A DNA stretch of 64,000 bases from Gelidibacter gilvus (lineage in GTDB: Bacteria; Bacteroidota; Bacteroidia; Flavobacteriales; Flavobacteriaceae): the NCBI RefSeq assembly GCF_004115975.1, contig NZ_SDDZ01000001.1, positions 62,001 to 126,000 of the forward strand. The letters run 5' to 3'. Under the pieces are notes generated by a model that saw only the letters and a program-made list of their open reading frames with translations, was not told the origin of the DNA and searched no databases. Shown one piece after another: positions 1,863 through 9,615 of this stretch (position 1 is the stretch's first letter; each line of letters opens with the position of its first letter). The position numbers and the translations under genes are program-made.

Positions 1863-2285
1863 ATGAAACAGTTTTTTTTATTTGTTGGTCTTATTCTTTT
1901 AACAGCTTGTAGTAGAAACAATAGTGATGAGAATTGCAGATTCTTGGTCAATGCTGCTGTGAACGTCACTGTCAACATGAATTTACCACAGTACAACCAA
2001 TTACAATTTACCAGCAACTCCGTTTATATAGCCAACCAAGGCAATAAAGGCGTTATCGTAATTAATGTTGGTAGCGGATTCCGAGCTTGGGATGCTGCCG
2101 ATCCCAACCATGAGCAGAGCACATGTTCTTTACTTACAATTACTGGCGCCAATGCGGTTTGTGGGTGCGTTGACGCCAATACTTATAGCTTATTTACGGG
2201 AGGTTCTATCGGGAAACAATTACCGTGCGGGCTCAAGGAATACCGCGTGAACGTGTCTGGAAATTCCCTCCTTATTACAAATTAA
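1863..2285 (+). CDS. Rieske-like lipoprotein without cluster ligands
   Basis: A 140-residue lipoprotein with signal peptide and lipobox LTAC (Cys16). The ATG at 1863 is preferred over the in-frame TTG one codon earlier. The layout follows small flavobacterial Rieske-fold proteins: an AWD-x-x-DPNHE segment near 75-84, VCGCV at 99-103, then YSLFTGG and LKEYRV. A working Rieske site needs CxH and CxxH; here Asp80 stands where the first Cys is expected, and Val103 replaces the second His. It probably cannot hold a 2Fe-2S cluster. Its stop codon overlaps that of the convergent TonB receptor. The fold call is inference. Confidence 0.6.
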   Translation: MKQFFLFVGLILLTACSRNNSDENCRFLVNAAVNVTVNMNLPQYNQLQFTSNSVYIANQGNKGVIVINVGSGFRAWDAADPNHEQSTCSLLTITGANAVCGCVDANTYSLFTGGSIGKQLPCGLKEYRVNVSGNSLLITN

Positions 2286-4747
2286 AATTTTAAGGTAGCT
2301 CCAACCAAAAAGTTAGTGGTGGCTTGAGGAAAATATCCTGCACCTTCTATTGTTGTTATTTGATTTGGATCGCTCCAGTTATCATCAAAGGTGTAATAAA
2401 ATCCGTTGGACACATATTTCTTGTTTAAAATATTATTTACTAATCCAGAAAATAGGATCGACTTGATAAGAGGCTTTTTCTGAGCATCATCTTTAGATTT
2501 CAACGTCCATTCGTAAGTGACATTAATATCATTCACAAAATAAGCGTCTAATTTTGAAGCTTGAGAATCGGTATTGCCCATAAACTGTTCCCCAACATAT
2601 TTGCTCAACAAACTGATTTGATAATGTTCTTTAGGTTGAAACACTAAGGCATTTGACGCGACAAGTTCCGGCGAAAACGAAATATTCGTCTTGCCTAAAT
2701 CCACTAACTCACCATCCCGCTCCATAACTGATGCTTTGGTTTTATTGGAACTTACCGTCACACTCGGTTGTAAACTCCATTGGGAAGTCAGTCTTAACGC
2801 CGCTTCAATTTCCAAGCCCAAACGGTAGCTATCCCCACTGTTGGTCCTAATTGGATTTCCGGTAGTGTCAAGTTCCCCAGTTAATACCAGTTGTTCATTA
2901 TACAACATATAATAGGCATTGGCATTGATCCGAAACGCTGGATTATCATATCGCCATCCCAACTCAAAATCATTAAGTTGTTCTGGTTTTACGTCCATAT
3001 TATTTTGAAAATCCTTCCGACTTGGCTCTCTGTTAGCTCTTGCATAAGAAAAATACAATGCATTGGCCGAATCGAATTGATAGGTCAATCCTGCCTTTGG
3101 GTTAAAGAAATTAAACGTTTCGTCAATTTCCATGAGGTCCATATCCGAATTTGTTCCTGTGGTGGCATAACCTACATTACGATACTGTAAATCGCCATAA
3201 AAACTTAATTGTTCATCAAATCGAAAGGTTGCCTTTGCAAATACATTCGCGTCAGTTTTCTTTCCGTTACCATCATAATAGCGGTGTCCTTTAGGAGAAT
3301 CGCCAGCATATTGCGCCCAAATCACTTCACCATAATGATCGCCATCGTAAGTACTATACGATGTTCCAAATGAAAGATCTAAGTTTTCCTTTTTATAATT
3401 GGCATTGGCATTTATCACATAAAAATGGTTATCCAACCATCGGCGGCGCACCAAATCACTGCGCGTAATACTTTCGCCACCCAAATCGACGTTTTCCATT
3501 CCGTACTCCACTAATTTCTGCTTTTCTTTATACTGCTCGAAAAAGCCCAGTCCACGGGTATAATTCAAGCCCAAGGTTGTGGACCAATTGTTGTTGATGC
3601 GCTCATTCCAATGCAATTGGTAGTGATCCTGTTTATAATCATCAATTTCATTATCGTAAAACTGAATGTTTCCGTCGGCATCCGTATACATTCCTGCCGT
3701 ATTAAAAGTTCTATCGTTTTTCAATAGCTCCAAGTCTTCCAATCCGTTCCAAGCTTGATACGTGATTTCCTGACCTCCAAAAACAACTGCTTTAATGAGT
3801 CGATTGGTATCCACATAAGCACCTTGTAAGAAATATGATTTTAGATCTGAAGTTGCCCGATCGATATAGCCATCCGACTTAATATTTGACAATCGTCCTG
3901 AAATTTCAAAATGATCATTTAAGCGTCCTGTGCTAAACTTAAGCGTATGCTTGTGGGTGTTATAACTCCCAAAACTATTGGCGATTTCTGCACTTGCTTT
4001 ATTGGAAACGCCTTCAGTAAGCACGTTAATGCTGGCACCAAATGCACCAGAACCATTTGTAGATGTTCCTACACCACGCTGCAATTGCATACTTTCTGTG
4101 GAAGATGCAAAATCACTCAAATTCACCCAAAAAGTCCCCATAGATTCTGCATCATTATACGGAATACCATTAATGGTGATGTTGGTAGATTGTGCATTAA
4201 TACCTCGCACTCGAATGCCAGTATAACCTACTCCAGCTCCAGCATCCGTGGTGGTGACCACCGAGGGCAAGAAGTTAAGAAGCATAGGAATATCTTGGCC
4301 TAAATTGCGTTTTTCCAGATCTTCTTTGGAGATATTAGAGTGGGTAATTGGCGAACTTGAGCCCACGCGCACAGCATTGACCAAAACCTCATCCAAAACT
4401 TCGGTAGTTTCGTTAATGATAATATCCAGAACTAAATCCGAGTTAAGATCAAAAGTTTTCTCAATAGGTTGTGCGGTGAGGTAACGAATTTCTAAAGTGT
4501 GTTTCCCTTTAGGTAAATCCAAAGTATAGTGACCATTAAGATCTGTTTGCGTCCAAGTTGTACTTCTCTTCAACTGAATGCTCACACCTGCAAGAGGTTC
4601 TGAGTTTTGTTGGGTGACGTGACCGGATACACGATAGTTTTGCGCAAAAGCAGTAACGCTTGAGAAAAGCAAAACATAAATTAAAATAAACTTGAAAGAT
4701 GGTTTGAATCGGCTCTTGTCCGATAAGTTTGAAAATAAAGATTTCAT
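2282..4747 (-). CDS. TonB-dependent receptor under TPP riboswitch control (thiamine uptake)
   Basis: An 821-residue outer-membrane active transporter. A signal peptide ends near residue 35 (SVTAFAQ). A carboxypeptidase-regulatory-like domain follows (about 37-115: SGHVTQQNSEPLAGVSIQLK), then the plug (about 135-250, with GYTGIRVRGINAQSTNITI), then a beta-barrel ending in LVGATLKF. Some features (RREPSRKDF-like motif, PEQLNDFELGWRY) are typical of siderophore/vitamin receptors. The TPP riboswitch at 4900-5043 points to thiamine or a phosphorylated form as substrate. Energy would come from TonB-ExbBD. The substrate is inferred from regulation, not from the receptor sequence. Confidence 0.9.
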   Translation of the reverse strand: MKSLFSNLSDKSRFKPSFKFILIYVLLFSSVTAFAQNYRVSGHVTQQNSEPLAGVSIQLKRSTTWTQTDLNGHYTLDLPKGKHTLEIRYLTAQPIEKTFDLNSDLVLDIIINETTEVLDEVLVNAVRVGSSSPITHSNISKEDLEKRNLGQDIPMLLNFLPSVVTTTDAGAGVGYTGIRVRGINAQSTNITINGIPYNDAESMGTFWVNLSDFASSTESMQLQRGVGTSTNGSGAFGASINVLTEGVSNKASAEIANSFGSYNTHKHTLKFSTGRLNDHFEISGRLSNIKSDGYIDRATSDLKSYFLQGAYVDTNRLIKAVVFGGQEITYQAWNGLEDLELLKNDRTFNTAGMYTDADGNIQFYDNEIDDYKQDHYQLHWNERINNNWSTTLGLNYTRGLGFFEQYKEKQKLVEYGMENVDLGGESITRSDLVRRRWLDNHFYVINANANYKKENLDLSFGTSYSTYDGDHYGEVIWAQYAGDSPKGHRYYDGNGKKTDANVFAKATFRFDEQLSFYGDLQYRNVGYATTGTNSDMDLMEIDETFNFFNPKAGLTYQFDSANALYFSYARANREPSRKDFQNNMDVKPEQLNDFELGWRYDNPAFRINANAYYMLYNEQLVLTGELDTTGNPIRTNSGDSYRLGLEIEAALRLTSQWSLQPSVTVSSNKTKASVMERDGELVDLGKTNISFSPELVASNALVFQPKEHYQISLLSKYVGEQFMGNTDSQASKLDAYFVNDINVTYEWTLKSKDDAQKKPLIKSILFSGLVNNILNKKYVSNGFYYTFDDNWSDPNQITTIEGAGYFPQATTNFLVGATLKF

Positions 4748-4899
4748 TCGAATAAATAAATTTAGACGAATAAAAAGAGGTAATTATTCTTTGGTTAAAT
4801 ATTAAATAATTAGTTAAGCTTTAAAATTCAACGGTATCTTATTAAGATATTTTTGCCGGCAACCGTTAAATATGTCTTTCAGACACGTTTTAAAACTTA

Positions 4900-5043
4900 T
4901 ATCCCTAAACGGCATTATCCGTTCTAGGTTCAATGGGTATGATCTCAGCCGATTTGATTGTTGATCTTTGATTTTTGATTTTTGAATACTCTTAATTCAA
5001 CAATCATCAATCTCCCATCTTCAATCTATCAGGCACCCCTTTT
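4900..5043 (-). ncRNA. TPP (THI-box) riboswitch
   Basis: Read on the minus strand, the element has the THI-box core in order: GGGGTGCC, a long variable P3 arm, GGCTGAGA, ACCC, GAACCT, then GGATAATGCC and AGGGA. It lies about 150 nt upstream of the TonB receptor start, in the right orientation. Thiamine pyrophosphate binding would be expected to reduce receptor expression. The P3 arm (about 4962-5030) is unusually long and made of low-complexity TTGATTTTTGA-type sequence that is also found in the neighbouring spacer. Confidence 0.93.
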
Positions 5044-5055
5044 TTGAGAACGGTG

Positions 5056-5063
5056 CAAAGATA
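5056..5063 (-). promoter_or_regulatory. -7 promoter box for the riboswitch transcript
   Basis: TATCTTTG on the minus strand is a perfect match to TAnnTTTG. It lies about 14-20 nt before the first conserved riboswitch bases, so transcription would start at about 5050. Confidence 0.65.
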
Positions 5064-5124
5064 TAAAGGATTTACGATTTTTGAATTACGAATTACGAAT
5101 ATATTTATCTACGTATAATTTTAA

Positions 5125-5232
5125 GCATCTCTCGCAGAGACCCAAATGGATTGCTGATTGTTGAATGCTGATTTTTGATTTGTACCCTAAGTAGAAGGTT
5201 CTCTCGTAGAACCACGGGGCGCGAAGATAAAC
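5125..5232 (-). ncRNA. Candidate structured leader RNA of unknown class
   Basis: Two short perfect hairpins, GGTTCT-5 nt-AGAACC (5197-5213) and TCTCT-3 nt-AGAGA (5128-5140), flank a low-complexity insert. On the minus strand both contain the string CGAGAGA. A near-consensus -7 box (TATCTTCG, 5222-5229) sits just upstream on that strand. The rest of the 4748-5331 spacer holds the TPP riboswitch, a promoter and a GC-rich inverted repeat. Orientation and function are inferred. A flavobacterial RNA class such as Flavo-1 is possible but was not tested. Confidence 0.35.
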
Positions 5233-5284
5233 GATTTGTAATGTAATGGTATATTAGAGACATTGACAGTGAGGGACTGAAGAC

Positions 5285-5317
5285 CCGCCCCGAACGTGCC
5301 TTATCGGTTCGGGCAGG
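5285..5317. repeat. GC-rich inverted repeat
   Basis: Arms CCGCCCCGAAC and GTTCGGGCAGG pair with one mismatch around an 11-nt loop, between arfB and the leader RNAs. It is much more GC-rich than its surroundings and resembles dispersed flavobacterial palindromes. It may also act as the arfB terminator. Confidence 0.55.
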
Positions 5318-5331
5318 CTGCCAACTGAAGA

Positions 5332-5736
5332 CTACTCAATTTCCGGGGGTTTCCGATTAGCTTTTTTATCCGAAGTTTTTCGCTTTGCCTTCAATCGTTT
5401 TCTTATAACGGAACGAGGTGTTTTGGTGGGAATACGTTCTTTGGGAACGATTAATCCTTCTTCGAGAAGGTCAAAAAAACGTTGCACGACAAGTGTTTTG
5501 TTTTTATGCTGACTCCTACTCTCTTCACATTGGAGCAAGAGAACATTTTCTTTGGTGAGGCGGTTGCTAAGGTTCTGCTTTAATAATGCTTTTTCATCTT
5601 CGTTTAATCCGTTTGAAGCTTCCAAATCAAAAATCAGCTCCACTTTTGAAGCCACTTTATTGACATTCTGACCCCCGGCACCTGAGCTCCTCACGGCTTT
5701 AAATTGCAATTCCGATTGTAGAATATCTTTGTCCAT
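5332..5736 (-). CDS. arfB: Alternative ribosome-rescue factor ArfB (peptidyl-tRNA hydrolase)
   Basis: A 134-residue YaeJ/ArfB protein. The catalytic GGQ motif is at residues 21-23 within SSGAGGQNVNKVASKVEL. A lysine/arginine-rich C-terminal tail (from about 112) would lie in the empty mRNA channel of a stalled ribosome. The short length and single RF1-like domain separate it from release factors 1 and 2. It follows the DUF4301 gene by 62 bp on the same strand. Ribosome rescue has no known link to thiamine, so this may be a chance neighbour. Confidence 0.93.
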   Translation of the reverse strand: MDKDILQSELQFKAVRSSGAGGQNVNKVASKVELIFDLEASNGLNEDEKALLKQNLSNRLTKENVLLLQCEESRSQHKNKTLVVQRFFDLLEEGLIVPKERIPTKTPRSVIRKRLKAKRKTSDKKANRKPPEIE

Positions 5737-5798
5737 TATGTTATTTAAAAAAATGTCCGAAAAGTGCAGGCTGACAGTTGCAGACTGCTAACTGAACA

Positions 5799-7352
5799 CT
5801 ACTCAATTTGATGTGTTGGCTTCAATAAATCAGTGACCGTTTTTACTGGATTAAAAGTAATCAGTGGCACCTCAACAAAAATAGTATTCCAACCCGCCAT
5901 ACTGCCGTTCCAAAGTCCGGGCAACTCCAAAGCCATCAAATCCTTTCCAGCTTTGGTTTTCATGGTTATAAATGCCGTTGTAGGATCGACATATTTTTGC
6001 AAGTCAAAAACCTCTCCTTTATAGTTTTTGATACCACATACTAAGTCGACAGGATTAAAATGTGTCGCGTTCTTCAGGATTTCGTTTTGTTTTTTATTAT
6101 CTGTATCAATTTGAGCCGACTCTACAATTTGAAGTGTTATTTGTCCATTCTCTCCTTTTATCCAAAACGGACCACCACCAGGTTCACCTTCATTTTTCAC
6201 CATTCCACAAATTCGGAGGGGCCTGTTCAACTTATCAAATAAATATTCGATTTGATATTTTGTGGCGTATTTTTTAAATTCAGTACTGATGACCACGTTC
6301 AACTTATTCTCCAAAAACTCAGATATGTTGAGTATATCCTCTTCCGATACGTCTCCAACTTCAAGATGATTCAAATGCTTAAATAGGTCATGCTGGATTT
6401 CCAGCAACATGCCTCCTAACATTTTTTTATATTCGGCAACTTCATCTTCATATTTATAGACCACCACATTATCAATGTTTTTTATAAAGATGATATCAGC
6501 ATTTAATTGGTTCAAATTCTCCAAAAGCGCACCATGTCCTGAAGGTCTGAAGCTCAGCTGACCATCTTCTTCTCTGAAAAGCTCGTTTTCGGGAGTGACA
6601 GCGATAGTATCGGTAGATCCCTTTTGATATGAGAAGGAAATATGAAATTTAGTGTTTGTTTTATGTTCTACAATATCCTGAATACGCGCAAATTCATCAT
6701 CAAACATTTTCTTATAAAGCTCTGAGATTGTAAAATGCAAAAATGCGGTATTGTTTGTAGATGCATATAATGCCCCTTCAAATAAATGCTCTTCAAAAGC
6801 TGTAGCCAAATGATCTTTATACTCATGAAATGGCAACAATCCCTTTGGGTAAAAACCATAATTCATTTTATCCTCATCCATCATGGTTTTGACGAAGAGT
6901 AATTTTTGTCTATCGCTGGAAAATGTTGCATGATCGGGATAAAACACCTTCAATTGCTCAAGTACCTTCTCATAAAACGGCAGCTTTTCCATCCCCACGA
7001 AAAACAAGGATAAATCGGCATCTTTATGCTTATTTACAAAAGAATTTATGCTTTCATCTTCTGGAACATACTCATCAATAAACCGAAACAATGTTTTGAA
7101 CATACGCGTGGCTGCACCAGATGCAGGAACAAATTTCGCTATGGAAACCCCGTTCCTTTTGGTATCAAAATAATTGATATGATGTGCCTTTTCAGCTTCG
7201 GAGCATTTTAAAATCCCGTTATTTATGGTGGCAGCCGAATGAAGGTTAACAAACGGCACACCCGTTTCAAAAAGTTCAAGCTGCGACTGGATCTGCGCTA
7301 AAGTCAGCCCTTTGTTTTCAATTTGTTGGATATCTTTTTCTGTAAATTTCAC
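5799..7352 (-). CDS. DUF4301 family protein
   Basis: A 517-residue protein matching DUF4301 by its conserved stretches: KFVPASGAATRMFK (about 73-86), FRPSGHGALLENLN (about 268-281) and the C-terminal LPGLWNGSMAGWNT. The glycine-rich ASGAATRMF segment looks like a nucleotide-binding loop of nucleotidyltransferase (NTP-transferase) folds; this is inference. The start is GTG at 7352, overlapping the kinase stop codon in a GTGA junction, so translation is probably coupled. No reaction is known. Context suggests a role in handling a nucleotide- or vitamin-like compound. Confidence 0.85.
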   Translation of the reverse strand: MKFTEKDIQQIENKGLTLAQIQSQLELFETGVPFVNLHSAATINNGILKCSEAEKAHHINYFDTKRNGVSIAKFVPASGAATRMFKTLFRFIDEYVPEDESINSFVNKHKDADLSLFFVGMEKLPFYEKVLEQLKVFYPDHATFSSDRQKLLFVKTMMDEDKMNYGFYPKGLLPFHEYKDHLATAFEEHLFEGALYASTNNTAFLHFTISELYKKMFDDEFARIQDIVEHKTNTKFHISFSYQKGSTDTIAVTPENELFREEDGQLSFRPSGHGALLENLNQLNADIIFIKNIDNVVVYKYEDEVAEYKKMLGGMLLEIQHDLFKHLNHLEVGDVSEEDILNISEFLENKLNVVISTEFKKYATKYQIEYLFDKLNRPLRICGMVKNEGEPGGGPFWIKGENGQITLQIVESAQIDTDNKKQNEILKNATHFNPVDLVCGIKNYKGEVFDLQKYVDPTTAFITMKTKAGKDLMALELPGLWNGSMAGWNTIFVEVPLITFNPVKTVTDLLKPTHQIE

Positions 7353-7915
7353 GCTTTCTTTTTTATAAGTTCATCAATATGATCTACTGCGACATTAAAT
7401 CGCTCTTCAATAGACCCTTTCAATAAAATGTAGGGTTTGCTGTATTTTTTTAAAGCATTTTCAAAGGCTTTAAACATGGCTTCCCGGTCATTAGGCCGGT
7501 CTCTTAAGTCGTCAGCTTCCCACGGGATATCAATATAAGTCAAAAAGTAGAGATCGTAAGTGTTTTGTATGGCATATTTTTCCAGAATTGGATCACATTT
7601 CCCATCATAATAGGCTTCAGAATAGACCTTGGTTTCCAAAAGATCGGTGTCGCAAATAAGCACCTTGTTAGCCTTTGGAGTCAGTTTGTTTTCAAGTTGC
7701 ATCTGTCCTTCAGCAATCGGCAAGACATCATCAAAAGTCAATGTCTTGTTGAAAAGCAATTTCTCTTCGGCATAAATACGCGAATATTCCGGCACAAAGA
7801 CCGTGTGGTAATTTTCCGCCAATTGCACTGCTAAAGTACTTTTCCCGGTTGACTCAGGACCAAATAAAACTACTTTTATGCAATCTGAGGCGTTTTGTCT
7901 AAGCTTTTCTTCCAT
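7349..7915 (-). CDS. NadR-like P-loop kinase beside a PnuC/PnuT transporter
   Basis: A 188-residue ATP-binding protein. The Walker A loop GPESTGKST is at residues 19-27 and EYSRIYAEEKL follows, as in the ribosylnicotinamide-kinase domain of NadR; the adenylyltransferase domain is absent. The ATG at 7915 is chosen because the preceding 37 in-frame codons are hydrophobic and lie inside pnuC in another frame. It overlaps pnuC by 40 nt and the DUF4301 gene by 4 nt. The substrate is nicotinamide riboside by family, but thiamine is attractive because of the nearby thiamine genes. Confidence 0.85.
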   Translation of the reverse strand: MEEKLRQNASDCIKVVLFGPESTGKSTLAVQLAENYHTVFVPEYSRIYAEEKLLFNKTLTFDDVLPIAEGQMQLENKLTPKANKVLICDTDLLETKVYSEAYYDGKCDPILEKYAIQNTYDLYFLTYIDIPWEADDLRDRPNDREAMFKAFENALKKYSKPYILLKGSIEERFNVAVDHIDELIKKKA

Positions 7916-8508
7916 GCTATATATCCGTAAATCGCTATAAAGGTAAATCCAAAATATTGAATGCTCGTAAAGGTAAATCCTTTGTAGAAATAAAGTGGAA
8001 TAGAAATGAGGTCCCCAACAATCCAATAAATCCAGTTCTCAACTTTACGCCGTGCCATAAGCCACATGCCCACAAAGAAAATTGCGGTGGTAATGGTATC
8101 CACATAAGCCATCCAACTGGTCCATTTGTCAAAGGTTTTATAAATGATGAACACAAAACCTAATGTTGCCAGGAATATCACTAGGCTGACTTTATGCTCC
8201 CAAGCTGTCGTTCTTGAAATTGGAGTAACGTGCGCGCTGTCCACTTTTCTGGTCCAAATATACCATCCATACACACTCATAATAAAATAGTAGCCATTGA
8301 TCATCATATCTCCCAAAAGCTCCCATTTTATAAGCAGGTACACAAAAATGCCCGTACTGATCATTCCGGTTGGAAATACCCAAATATTATTTTGCTTAGA
8401 GCTCCAAACTGACAGGAATCCGAAGATAACGGCTACAATTTCTAACGCAATATCCATGGTATCATAACCTGAATACTGTCCGAAAAGGAAATCAAAAATG
8501 TGGCTCAT
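7876..8508 (-). CDS. PnuC/PnuT-type vitamin transporter
   Basis: A 210-residue inner-membrane protein with about seven hydrophobic segments. Segments such as SVWSSKQNNIWVFPTGMIS and MSVYGWYIWTRK are characteristic of the PnuC family. PnuC members move nicotinamide riboside, while PnuT relatives move thiamine by facilitated diffusion with trapping by phosphorylation. It overlaps the thiamine-binding-protein gene by 17 nt and the kinase gene by 40 nt. The thiamine-binding partner and the riboswitch-controlled receptor favour thiamine (PnuT), but the sequence alone does not prove it. Confidence 0.88.
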   Translation of the reverse strand: MSHIFDFLFGQYSGYDTMDIALEIVAVIFGFLSVWSSKQNNIWVFPTGMISTGIFVYLLIKWELLGDMMINGYYFIMSVYGWYIWTRKVDSAHVTPISRTTAWEHKVSLVIFLATLGFVFIIYKTFDKWTSWMAYVDTITTAIFFVGMWLMARRKVENWIYWIVGDLISIPLYFYKGFTFTSIQYFGFTFIAIYGYIAWKKSLDKTPQIA

Positions 8509-8752
8509 AATCGTGTCGATCAGATTTGACTATTTTCATATACAGCAAACCACGTTCAATCAAGGTGAATGCTTCTTTTATTTCGGTGGTCAAAAGTTCC
8601 ATGACGGCATCATAATCGCCATATACTTGGGTGCTCAACGGATTTTCCAAAACCGTAAGCCCAGAAGCTCTCAACTTTTTAATAAAATGAATGATGCTTG
8701 GTTCATAGTCATCATGCAAAGGGGTAAAGGTTAATTCTACTGATATTTTCAT
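8492..8752 (-). CDS. Single-domain YkoF-like thiamine-binding protein
   Basis: An 86-residue soluble protein resembling one repeat of Bacillus YkoF and the DUF77/MTH1187 family: KISVELTFTPL at the start, GLTVLENPLSTQVYGDYDAVMELL in the middle. YkoF binds thiamine and hydroxymethylpyrimidine with two such domains, so this protein would have to dimerise. It is the first gene of the overlapping run with PnuC, kinase and DUF4301. No TPP element was seen upstream; the spacer carries two palindromic repeats. Confidence 0.75.
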   Translation of the reverse strand: MKISVELTFTPLHDDYEPSIIHFIKKLRASGLTVLENPLSTQVYGDYDAVMELLTTEIKEAFTLIERGLLYMKIVKSDRHDYEPHF

Positions 8753-8844: not shown

Positions 8845-9615
8845 TTATTTTTCTTCTTTAGTCACATGTTCAAACATCATTGGCTTATTTATCTCCTCAA
8901 AAAACAAGTCATTTTCTTCAAATGCTGTTCCAATCACCACCAAATCTGCCCCAGAATGATAAGCAGCATCCAATTGATTTTTGGATTTAATACCGCCACC
9001 CACAATTAACGGAATTTGCAATTCACGTTTTACCGATTGGATAATCTCAGAGTTGATAGGATCAATGGCGCCACTTCCAGCTTCCAGATAAATACATTTC
9101 ATACCTAAAAGCTCCGCTGCTTTTGCGGTATCAACAATAGTCTGGATGTTTTGTCTATTTAAAGGATGGGTTTTGGTCACACGTTCTACGGCAGTTTTTT
9201 TTCCGTTTTCGATTAACAGATAGCCCGTTGGTATGATTTCAAGCTGCATGGTCCTCAAGACGGATACGGCTTCAACTTGTTTGCCGATTAGATAGTCAGG
9301 ATTCCTGCCCGAAACCAATGACAAAAACAATAAGCCATCGGCGTGAGATGACAATTGAGAAACATCGCCAGGGAAAATTAAGATTGGCAATTTGGTCCAT
9401 CTTTTTAATTCCTGGATCAAAAGATCCGTTTCATTTTCTTCAACTGTACTTCCACCAACAAAAATGTGAGTGGCGGACGAAGCTTTCAATTTTATCATGA
9501 AAGTCGAAACAGCTTCTAATTTCAATTTATCAGGATCGATCAAGACGGCCAGCAGCTTTTCCTTTAGAGAAATTGCGGTTAATATATCTTGATATAAATT
9601 CTTCTTTTTAGCCAC
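8845..9615 (-). CDS. Geranylgeranyl/heptaprenylglyceryl phosphate synthase
   Basis: A 256-residue TIM-barrel enzyme of the PcrB/GGGPS family, which joins a prenyl diphosphate to sn-glycerol-1-phosphate. LLAVLIDPDKL near the start, KCIYLEAGSGA, the phosphate-binding PLIVGGGIKSKNQLD and the end strand LVVIGTAFEEN are all present. The start is GTG at 9615; there is no ATG in frame before residue 40 and the family alignment needs the N-terminus. Bacteroidota carry this enzyme without full archaeal lipid synthesis. It is upstream of the thiamine-type operon by about 90 bp. Confidence 0.93.
   Translation of the reverse strand: MAKKKNLYQDILTAISLKEKLLAVLIDPDKLKLEAVSTFMIKLKASSATHIFVGGSTVEENETDLLIQELKRWTKLPILIFPGDVSQLSSHADGLLFLSLVSGRNPDYLIGKQVEAVSVLRTMQLEIIPTGYLLIENGKKTAVERVTKTHPLNRQNIQTIVDTAKAAELLGMKCIYLEAGSGAIDPINSEIIQSVKRELQIPLIVGGGIKSKNQLDAAYHSGADLVVIGTAFEENDLFFEEINKPMMFEHVTKEEK

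Follow-up and report, generated by a model that had tools for sequence, protein, structure and literature searches.

Gene content of the locus

The window considered here is a 64,000-nucleotide stretch of the Gelidibacter gilvus genome (assembly GCF_004115975.1, contig NZ_SDDZ01000001.1, positions 62,001 to 126,000). This report concerns a cluster on its minus strand that contains a small NadR-like P-loop kinase (hereafter KIN), which we predict to be a thiamine kinase. Read along the minus strand, the segment comprises genes for a GGGP synthase (GGGPS), a thiamine-binding protein (ThiBP), a PnuC-family transporter, KIN, a DUF4301 protein and the ribosome-rescue hydrolase ArfB, followed by a thiamine pyrophosphate (TPP) riboswitch and a TonB-dependent receptor (Table 1). 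The coordinates and Pfam matches bear out the gene set, its order and the overlaps of 17 nt (ThiBP/PnuC), 40 nt (PnuC/KIN) and 4 nt (KIN/DUF4301) described in an earlier note on this DNA. That note had placed the four overlapping genes directly upstream of the riboswitch-controlled receptor; they do lie on the same strand, but arfB separates DUF4301 from the riboswitch.

Table 1. Features of the G. gilvus locus, in the order in which they are read on the minus strand (positions are those of the window)
Feature	Coordinates	Strand	Basis and remarks
GGGP synthase family gene	8845..9615	-	NF003198, 271.3 bits; syntenic upstream neighbour, not considered part of the function
PF01910 thiamine-binding protein (ThiBP)	8492..8752	-	Pfam Thiamine_BP, 25.7 bits (cut-off 24.9)
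PnuC-family inner-membrane transporter, putative PnuT role	7876..8508	-	PF04973 NMN_transporter, 179.5 bits
KIN, NadR-kinase-like P-loop kinase, predicted thiamine kinase	7349..7915	-	AAA_28, 135.3 bits
DUF4301, predicted UDP-sugar-pyrophosphorylase-like nucleotidyltransferase	5799..7352	-	PF14134, 718 bits
arfB, ArfB ribosome-rescue hydrolase	5332..5736	-	NF006718, 129.1 bits (cut-off 100); syntenic, not considered a functional part
TPP riboswitch aptamer with extended P3 arm	4885..5050	-	RF00059, 34.7 bits; R1, 71.3 bits
TonB-dependent outer-membrane receptor, OMthi/omr1-like, putative thiamine receptor	2282..4747	-	Pfam CarbopepD_reg_2, Plug, TonB_dep_Rec_b-barrel

The start of KIN was set at an inner ATG (position 7915; the listed open frame begins further upstream), which gives a protein of 188 aa with AAA_28 as its sole Pfam domain. 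ThiBP had no match in the NCBIfam scan and no significant match in a PDB profile search.

Two overlapping sets were used for comparison, and the genomes in them are not independent samples. The main set comprises 98 genomes, that of G. gilvus included, of which 82 carry KIN and 16 do not. The second consists of 80 loci found via DUF4301, whose family or genus titles, where given, point to Flavobacteriaceae; three of these loci (L148, L161 and L172) correspond to genomes of the main set (G017, G043 and G015, respectively). KIN was sought with a model built from a 13-row kinase alignment, and a match was counted as KIN if the frame was too short to hold an NMN adenylyltransferase (NMNAT) domain or was fused to DUF4301. 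Among the 98 genomes, 93 encode a PnuC-family protein and 59 encode DUF4301; the 80 loci include 76 with a full-length transporter, 69 with KIN and 42 with a full-length ThiBP.

The TPP riboswitch

The TPP riboswitch to which the earlier note had ascribed control of the TonB receptor lies ~137 nt ahead of the receptor gene. The element was not reported in an RF00059 scan at the gathering threshold of 54.3, and a focused scan of 631 bases gave 34.7 bits (E 4.8e-5), yet our own covariance model, R1, scored it at 71.3 bits (E 3.8e-17, 1.69 Mb searched). R1 was trained on 22 flavobacterial TPP elements that exclude the one in the window and include another from the same genome (L122) and one from the same genus (L100). 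The RF00059 alignment is full-length (positions 1–105) and contains the conserved aptamer core, with 77 positions of the P3 arm omitted from the alignment display. Such long arms recur: the 76 TPP matches found by R1 in the 80 DUF4301 loci span 79 to 181 nt (two of 78 matches were dropped, namely the window's own and one in L185 with 15.4 bits and E 0.96). Weak Rfam scores are common as well, with a TPP match at E 0.001 in 86 of the 98 genomes and one above the cut-off in 30.

A TPP element was found in 73 of the 80 DUF4301 loci, and in 72 of the 80 it stands less than 700 nt before a homologue of the receptor gene, so that the arrangement in the window is not a matter of chance. There was no TPP match in L154, L164, L168, L169, L170, L175 and L177, the contigs of L154 and L164 ending nearby. 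An exceptional arrangement is seen in L158, where the cluster stands directly before a TPP element that is followed by thiC, a tenI-like gene, thiD, thiE and thiG. We call the aptamer in the window a TPP riboswitch, predicted from its sequence to bind TPP and to control expression. The earlier note had taken it as a sign that the whole set handles thiamine. Its position speaks for that view, but direct control of the entire set was rejected because the element is downstream of the set and could act directly on the receptor only.

A second TPP-like element of the same genome (G000:C37, L122:6923–7023, plus strand; L261 and L260 belong to the same observation) is separated by ~113 nt from a downstream gene for nicotinate phosphoribosyltransferase, behind which is an isochorismatase-fold gene. 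It scores 51.2 bits with RF00059 (below the cut-off) and 56.2 with R1, of whose training set it is a member, and inspection by eye shows a hairpin and T-run after it. The combination of element and gene is kept in G008; in G003 a threonine-aldolase-like frame (by eye) intervenes. TPP control of niacin salvage, if true, would be unusual. At another locus (L101:10444–14404), a sigma-54-type response regulator and an opposite-strand hybrid histidine kinase are found between the cluster and the TPP–receptor unit. Frames of similar size occur in L106, L113, L139, L153, L160, L172, L195 and L207, the domains having been verified in L101 only.

Genomic context of the kinase

KIN immediately follows PnuC in 70 of its 82 carriers and immediately precedes DUF4301 in 51. 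With a strict filter, a same-strand Rfam TPP match up to 10 kb downstream of KIN was found in 53 carriers; this filter had missed some elements, including the window's own. A rescan of 25 of the 29 carriers without a match (G018, G054, G057 and G059 were excluded) brought the number to 63 by adding G000, G003, G058, G036, G022, G008, G006, G004, G046 and G049; only carriers initially lacking a match were rescanned. The TPP element begins within 200 bp of KIN in 14 of the 82 carriers, and in G085 and G088 a nearby element is on the opposite strand.

The association between KIN and TPP elements extends to loci with a different gene content. A run of GGGPS, ThiBP, KIN, TPP element and receptor, with no adjoining PnuC or DUF4301, is found in G078 and G089 (f8), G071 and G082 (f14) and G096 (f7) (ThiBP was not found in the G071 cluster). 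L117, L265, L266 and L267 are loci at which the element begins within 200 bp of KIN with no PnuC or DUF4301 alongside. In G024, PnuC is missing from its place between ThiBP and KIN, and a divergent PnuC is encoded behind the receptor that the TPP element precedes. These loci bear on the view that the segment is a frozen block of housekeeping genes (GGGPS, DUF4301 and ArfB) with a kinase unrelated to thiamine in its midst. GGGPS and ArfB are, to be sure, conserved neighbours without an evident role in thiamine metabolism. Nevertheless, in several other families KIN precedes the TPP–receptor unit with neither DUF4301 nor ArfB in between (GGGPS stays near), the L158 cluster has been rearranged to a site beside thiC, and KIN tends not to share genomes with thiamine pyrophosphokinase (TPK), as described below; we consider a frozen segment very improbable.

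The thiamine pathway and the exclusion of TPK

Thiamine monophosphate (TMP) made de novo reaches TPP via ThiL, whereas imported thiamine needs a kinase to become TMP. The G. gilvus genome has a TPP element before an operon of thiC, a tenI-like gene, thiD, thiE, thiG and a thiH-like gene, and it encodes ThiL, as do most others (ThiL-type match in 96 of the 98 genomes, above the cut-off in 92). No match to TPK (PF04263) or to ThiK (TIGR02721) was found in this genome. The ThiK search, which detected the E. coli protein as a control, found no match over the cut-off in any of the 98 genomes and weak matches in six. With the thi genes and ThiL present and neither TPK nor ThiK beside them, KIN is the best candidate for the conversion of thiamine to TMP. 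Within the 59 genomes of the same family (that of G. gilvus included), ThiL is present throughout, TPK in four and ThiK, at its cut-off, in none.

Analysis of the distribution of TPK showed that it is encoded in 11 of the 98 genomes, comprising two of the 82 KIN carriers vs nine of the 16 non-carriers (Fisher p 3.4e-7, with no tree correction for descent). The nine TPK-bearing genomes without KIN fall into five groups (G010, G023, G060, four genomes of f5 and two of f16). In G023, which has no kinase match, the operon consists of the TPP element, receptor, PnuC and TPK, so that TPK takes the place of KIN behind PnuC. The two genomes with both enzymes are G011, whose KIN is intact and fused to DUF4301, and G058, whose KIN is broken, carrying premature stops and a Glu in place of the Walker A Lys (this genome is 88% complete and an assembly error is a possible source of the damage). 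TPK and KIN were also checked in 30 genomes from the DUF4301 loci. All seven genomes that have lost KIN carry TPK, with no kinase elsewhere, and none of the 11 KIN carriers of other genera has TPK. The seven losses show that KIN can be lost where TPK is present.

Three loci of TPK-bearing genomes encode proteins of 194–216 residues without a Pfam match, which lie either directly behind PnuC with a 4 nt overlap (L131:7557–8141 and L132:6943–7554) or between GGGPS and the TPP–receptor unit (L124:9985–10635).

The earlier note had proposed that the NadR-like kinase may act on thiamine, and this idea has gained ground. Because of the TPP synteny, the near-exclusion with TPK, the replacement by TPK, the broken copy in a TPK genome and the gap in the pathway, we predict that KIN phosphorylates thiamine to TMP, with a probability of roughly 0.7. 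Drawn from comparative genomics, this predicted activity is well supported. Alternatively, KIN could act not on thiamine but on one of its precursors or breakdown products, for example the alcohol of the pyrimidine or of the thiazole. The same TPP synteny would be expected in that case, and the L158 cluster does stand before a thi biosynthesis operon; however, the thi operon of G. gilvus already includes ThiD for the pyrimidine, and the exclusion of TPK points to thiamine itself, which makes a precursor kinase improbable.

Relationship to NadR and nicotinamide riboside salvage

The kinase domain of KIN is homologous to that of NadR, including Walker A (GPESTGKS in KIN) and the lid. By membership, however, KIN is not a NadR, because the NMNAT domain is absent; its score against TIGR01526 (NadR) is 110.3 bits, with a cut-off of 341.15. 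In a tree of 33 rows, 28 KINs stand apart from five NadRs (support 93/92), the NadR of G283 being the closest to KIN; the branches are long and call for caution. This tree excludes AAA2 and the broken L126 kinase, and of the fused L102 protein it includes only the kinase part. Residues common to KIN and all NadR rows are the Walker A Gly and Lys, Glu43, Arg46, Asp89-Thr90 (the DT motif), Asp135 and Arg138. In columns 99, 103, 141 and 183, no NadR row has the residue that is most frequent in KIN, though Phe (column 103) and Met (column 183) can be seen in both groups. The G. gilvus genome encodes a second AAA_28 protein (G000:C38), which we rejected as a copy of the same enzyme, since its Walker A reads GGPGTGKS and the KIN model did not match it.

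With NadR as the closest relative, the cluster might serve nicotinamide riboside (NR) salvage instead: PnuC would import NR, KIN would make NMN and DUF4301 would adenylate it to NAD, amounting to a rebuilt NadR beside a thiamine receptor. The nucleotidyltransferase fold predicted for DUF4301 (see below) and its fusion to KIN would indeed match the kinase-plus-transferase logic of NadR, and the PnuC protein in the window passes the NR transporter equivalog TIGR01528 (85.4 bits vs 42.45). However, all ten PnuC-like proteins tried pass this model, TPK-linked and TPP-controlled ones among them, and we rejected it as an arbiter of transporter substrate because it does not discriminate between the ten. 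With PRK15397, the two NadR-linked PnuC proteins score 115–116 bits and the other eight 52–81, so that the score of the window protein leans away from NR, short of proving thiamine. A PnuC tree parts the window-type transporter from paralogues located directly behind TPP elements, with weak deep nodes and long branches that leave it undecisive for substrate. NR salvage also fails to account for the exclusion of TPK and for those KIN genes that adjoin a TPP element but neither DUF4301 nor PnuC. Among the KIN-model matches in the 98 genomes at a threshold of E 1e-12, one lies in a frame with an NMNAT-type domain, a NadR in G009, in addition to the 82 KIN carriers. On balance, NR salvage appears unlikely.

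The G009 NadR lies in a row with a receptor-like gene and PnuC (L129:5812–9426), without a TPP match; judging by its genes, this row is likely an NR uptake system equipped with an outer-membrane receptor of its own. The PnuC-like paralogues found right behind a TPP element in L105, L107, L110 and L130 form their own group (100/100) and are without the second Trp of WxxW. In L105, L107 and L130 another gene follows at once downstream, and the one in L107, the sole one scanned, is acyl-CoA-dehydrogenase-like.

Several observations weigh against the thiamine kinase assignment. The nearest solved structures to KIN in the PDB are NadR proteins, and many conserved residues are common to the two. Bit score alone fails to separate them: with the KIN model, the G283 NadR reaches 162 bits and so outscores some of the frames of 170–197 residues that were counted as KIN. 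The riboswitch exerts no direct control over KIN. A downstream same-strand TPP element is lacking in 19 of the 82 carriers (some at contig ends, four not rescanned), and G172, a genome outside the order, has a PnuC–KIN pair with no TPP match nearby. Seven of the 98 genomes have neither KIN nor TPK, as do three Aquimarina in the 30-genome check. In that same check, fused KIN and TPK occur together in nine of nine Flavobacterium genomes. TPK is present in every one of the 16 Flavobacterium-type genomes tested, so that the seven KIN losses are not an independent association in that group. Finally, none of the 22 fused loci has a damaged Walker A, and TPK therefore does not always bring the loss of KIN.

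The DUF4301 protein

An AlphaFold2 model of DUF4301 (pLDDT 90.9, pTM 0.90) produced 52 Foldseek matches in the PDB at E 0.001 or better. The best 50 of the 52 are UDP-GlcNAc, UDP-glucose or UDP-sugar pyrophosphorylases (best match 6tn3_B, E 7.6e-11), with query TM-scores of 0.34–0.50. The Pfam UDPGP profile matched seven of 15 DUF4301 members weakly (E up to 10, best 6.1e-5) and gave no match to the window protein; a PDB profile search with DUF4301 was likewise without a significant match. From the structural model, DUF4301 is predicted to be a UDP-sugar-pyrophosphorylase-like nucleotidyltransferase. In the literature searched, which left subscription journals mostly outside, one paper mentioned DUF4301 and none PF14134, and no description of a function was found. 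A glycogen synthase gene (L115:7247–9052) and an isoamylase-type gene (L236:6491–8620) were seen directly before DUF4301; these neighbours would fit a sugar-nucleotide role.

KIN and DUF4301 form a single frame in 22 of the 80 loci (16 from Flavobacterium, five from unclassified metagenome genomes and one from Croceivirga radicis), and also in G011 and G014. In a survey of the phylum, frames of more than 690 residues were found in 15 of 27 same-family DUF4301 genomes, and the one inspected has KIN in front. The fusion ties KIN to DUF4301, though genes that overlap by 4 nt may fuse easily. DUF4301 is retained where KIN has been lost, in seven Flavobacterium-type loci and three of Aquimarina, which counts against a thiamine role. 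The phylum survey found it in 51 of 296 genomes, including 24 that do not belong to the family of G. gilvus. At the 19 loci read from these 24, all outside the order, there was no KIN, PnuC or TPP match nearby; only at L224 were ArfB and a weak fragment of a receptor (23%) seen. Seven outside-order genomes were checked for KIN: five had no match to the KIN model, in G172 KIN lies away from DUF4301, and G283 encodes a NadR. Neighbours of DUF4301 recur between close relatives only (20 proteins scanned, four of them inside the order), such as a carboxyltransferase in two f22 genomes and a cation efflux protein in two genomes of one genus.

DUF4301 as a thiamine family in general was rejected, given the 19 outside-family loci without thiamine neighbours. 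For the note's more specific idea, that the DUF4301 protein of this cluster is thiamine-related, the fusion with KIN is a point in favour, but the retention without KIN, the 19 loci and the UDP-sugar fold tell the other way, and a thiamine role appears doubtful. Since the two proteins are fused in several lineages, they might act in series, as NadR does on NR, with KIN making TMP and DUF4301 nucleotidylating a thiamine phosphate, for example to adenosine thiamine phosphate; such a series is very unlikely. We know of no dedicated gene for adenosine thiamine phosphate.

A predicted thiamine salvage module and its known counterparts

In the pathway that we propose, thiamine would cross the outer membrane by way of the TPP-riboswitch-controlled TonB receptor and the inner membrane by way of the PnuC-family protein; KIN would phosphorylate it to TMP and thereby trap it, and the ThiL of the genome would convert TMP to TPP. 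PnuT is reported to work by facilitated diffusion, and a trapping kinase would therefore be expected. KIN would fill the place of Tnr3, which we take from its name to be a thiamine pyrophosphokinase, in the OMthi–PnuT–Tnr3 module of Bacteroides. We infer the substrates of the receptor, transporter and kinase, the TMP product and the binding of thiamine by ThiBP, and regard the explanation as a whole as probable.

If the assignment is true, KIN fills a gap in how genomes of this family use free thiamine. Vitamin B1 acquisition is said to be important in marine flavobacteria. A true assignment would also mean that a NadR-type kinase domain has been recruited to another vitamin, and it would caution against reading PnuC–kinase pairs as NR salvage from model names alone. 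DUF4301, for its part, gains a predicted fold and activity class. No earlier proposal of KIN as a thiamine kinase was found in the literature searched; subscription journals were mostly outside this search, and prior proposals in print are possible.

Among known systems, E. coli ThiK, presumably the thiamine kinase of family TIGR02721, would share with KIN the predicted reaction from thiamine to TMP, KIN belonging to a different family, AAA_28. DUF4301 resembles UAP1, UGPase and USP (6tn3, 3r3i and 3oh0) in its predicted fold and weak UDPGP profile matches, at an identity of only 10–18%. With NadR (1LW7, and the Lactococcus lactis protein, PMC7221760), KIN has in common Walker A, the DT motif and the lid residues; unlike NadR, it lacks the NMNAT domain, falls into a tree group separate from the five NadR rows and keeps different genomic company.

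The closest parallel is the TPP-riboswitch-regulated thiamine uptake system of Bacteroides thetaiotaomicron, made up, according to PMC5613172, of OMthi (BT2390) and pnuT-tnr3 (BT2396–BT2397). As in that system, the window has a TPP element, a TPP-preceded TonB receptor, a PnuC-family transporter and a thiamine-phosphorylating enzyme, the last of these predicted. Unlike in OMthi–PnuT–Tnr3, the genome lacks TPK and the enzyme resembles the NadR kinase, the transporter and kinase genes are upstream of the riboswitch, and ThiBP and DUF4301 are added. The window thus probably holds a variant of the TonB receptor–PnuT–TPK module in which a NadR-like kinase replaces TPK.

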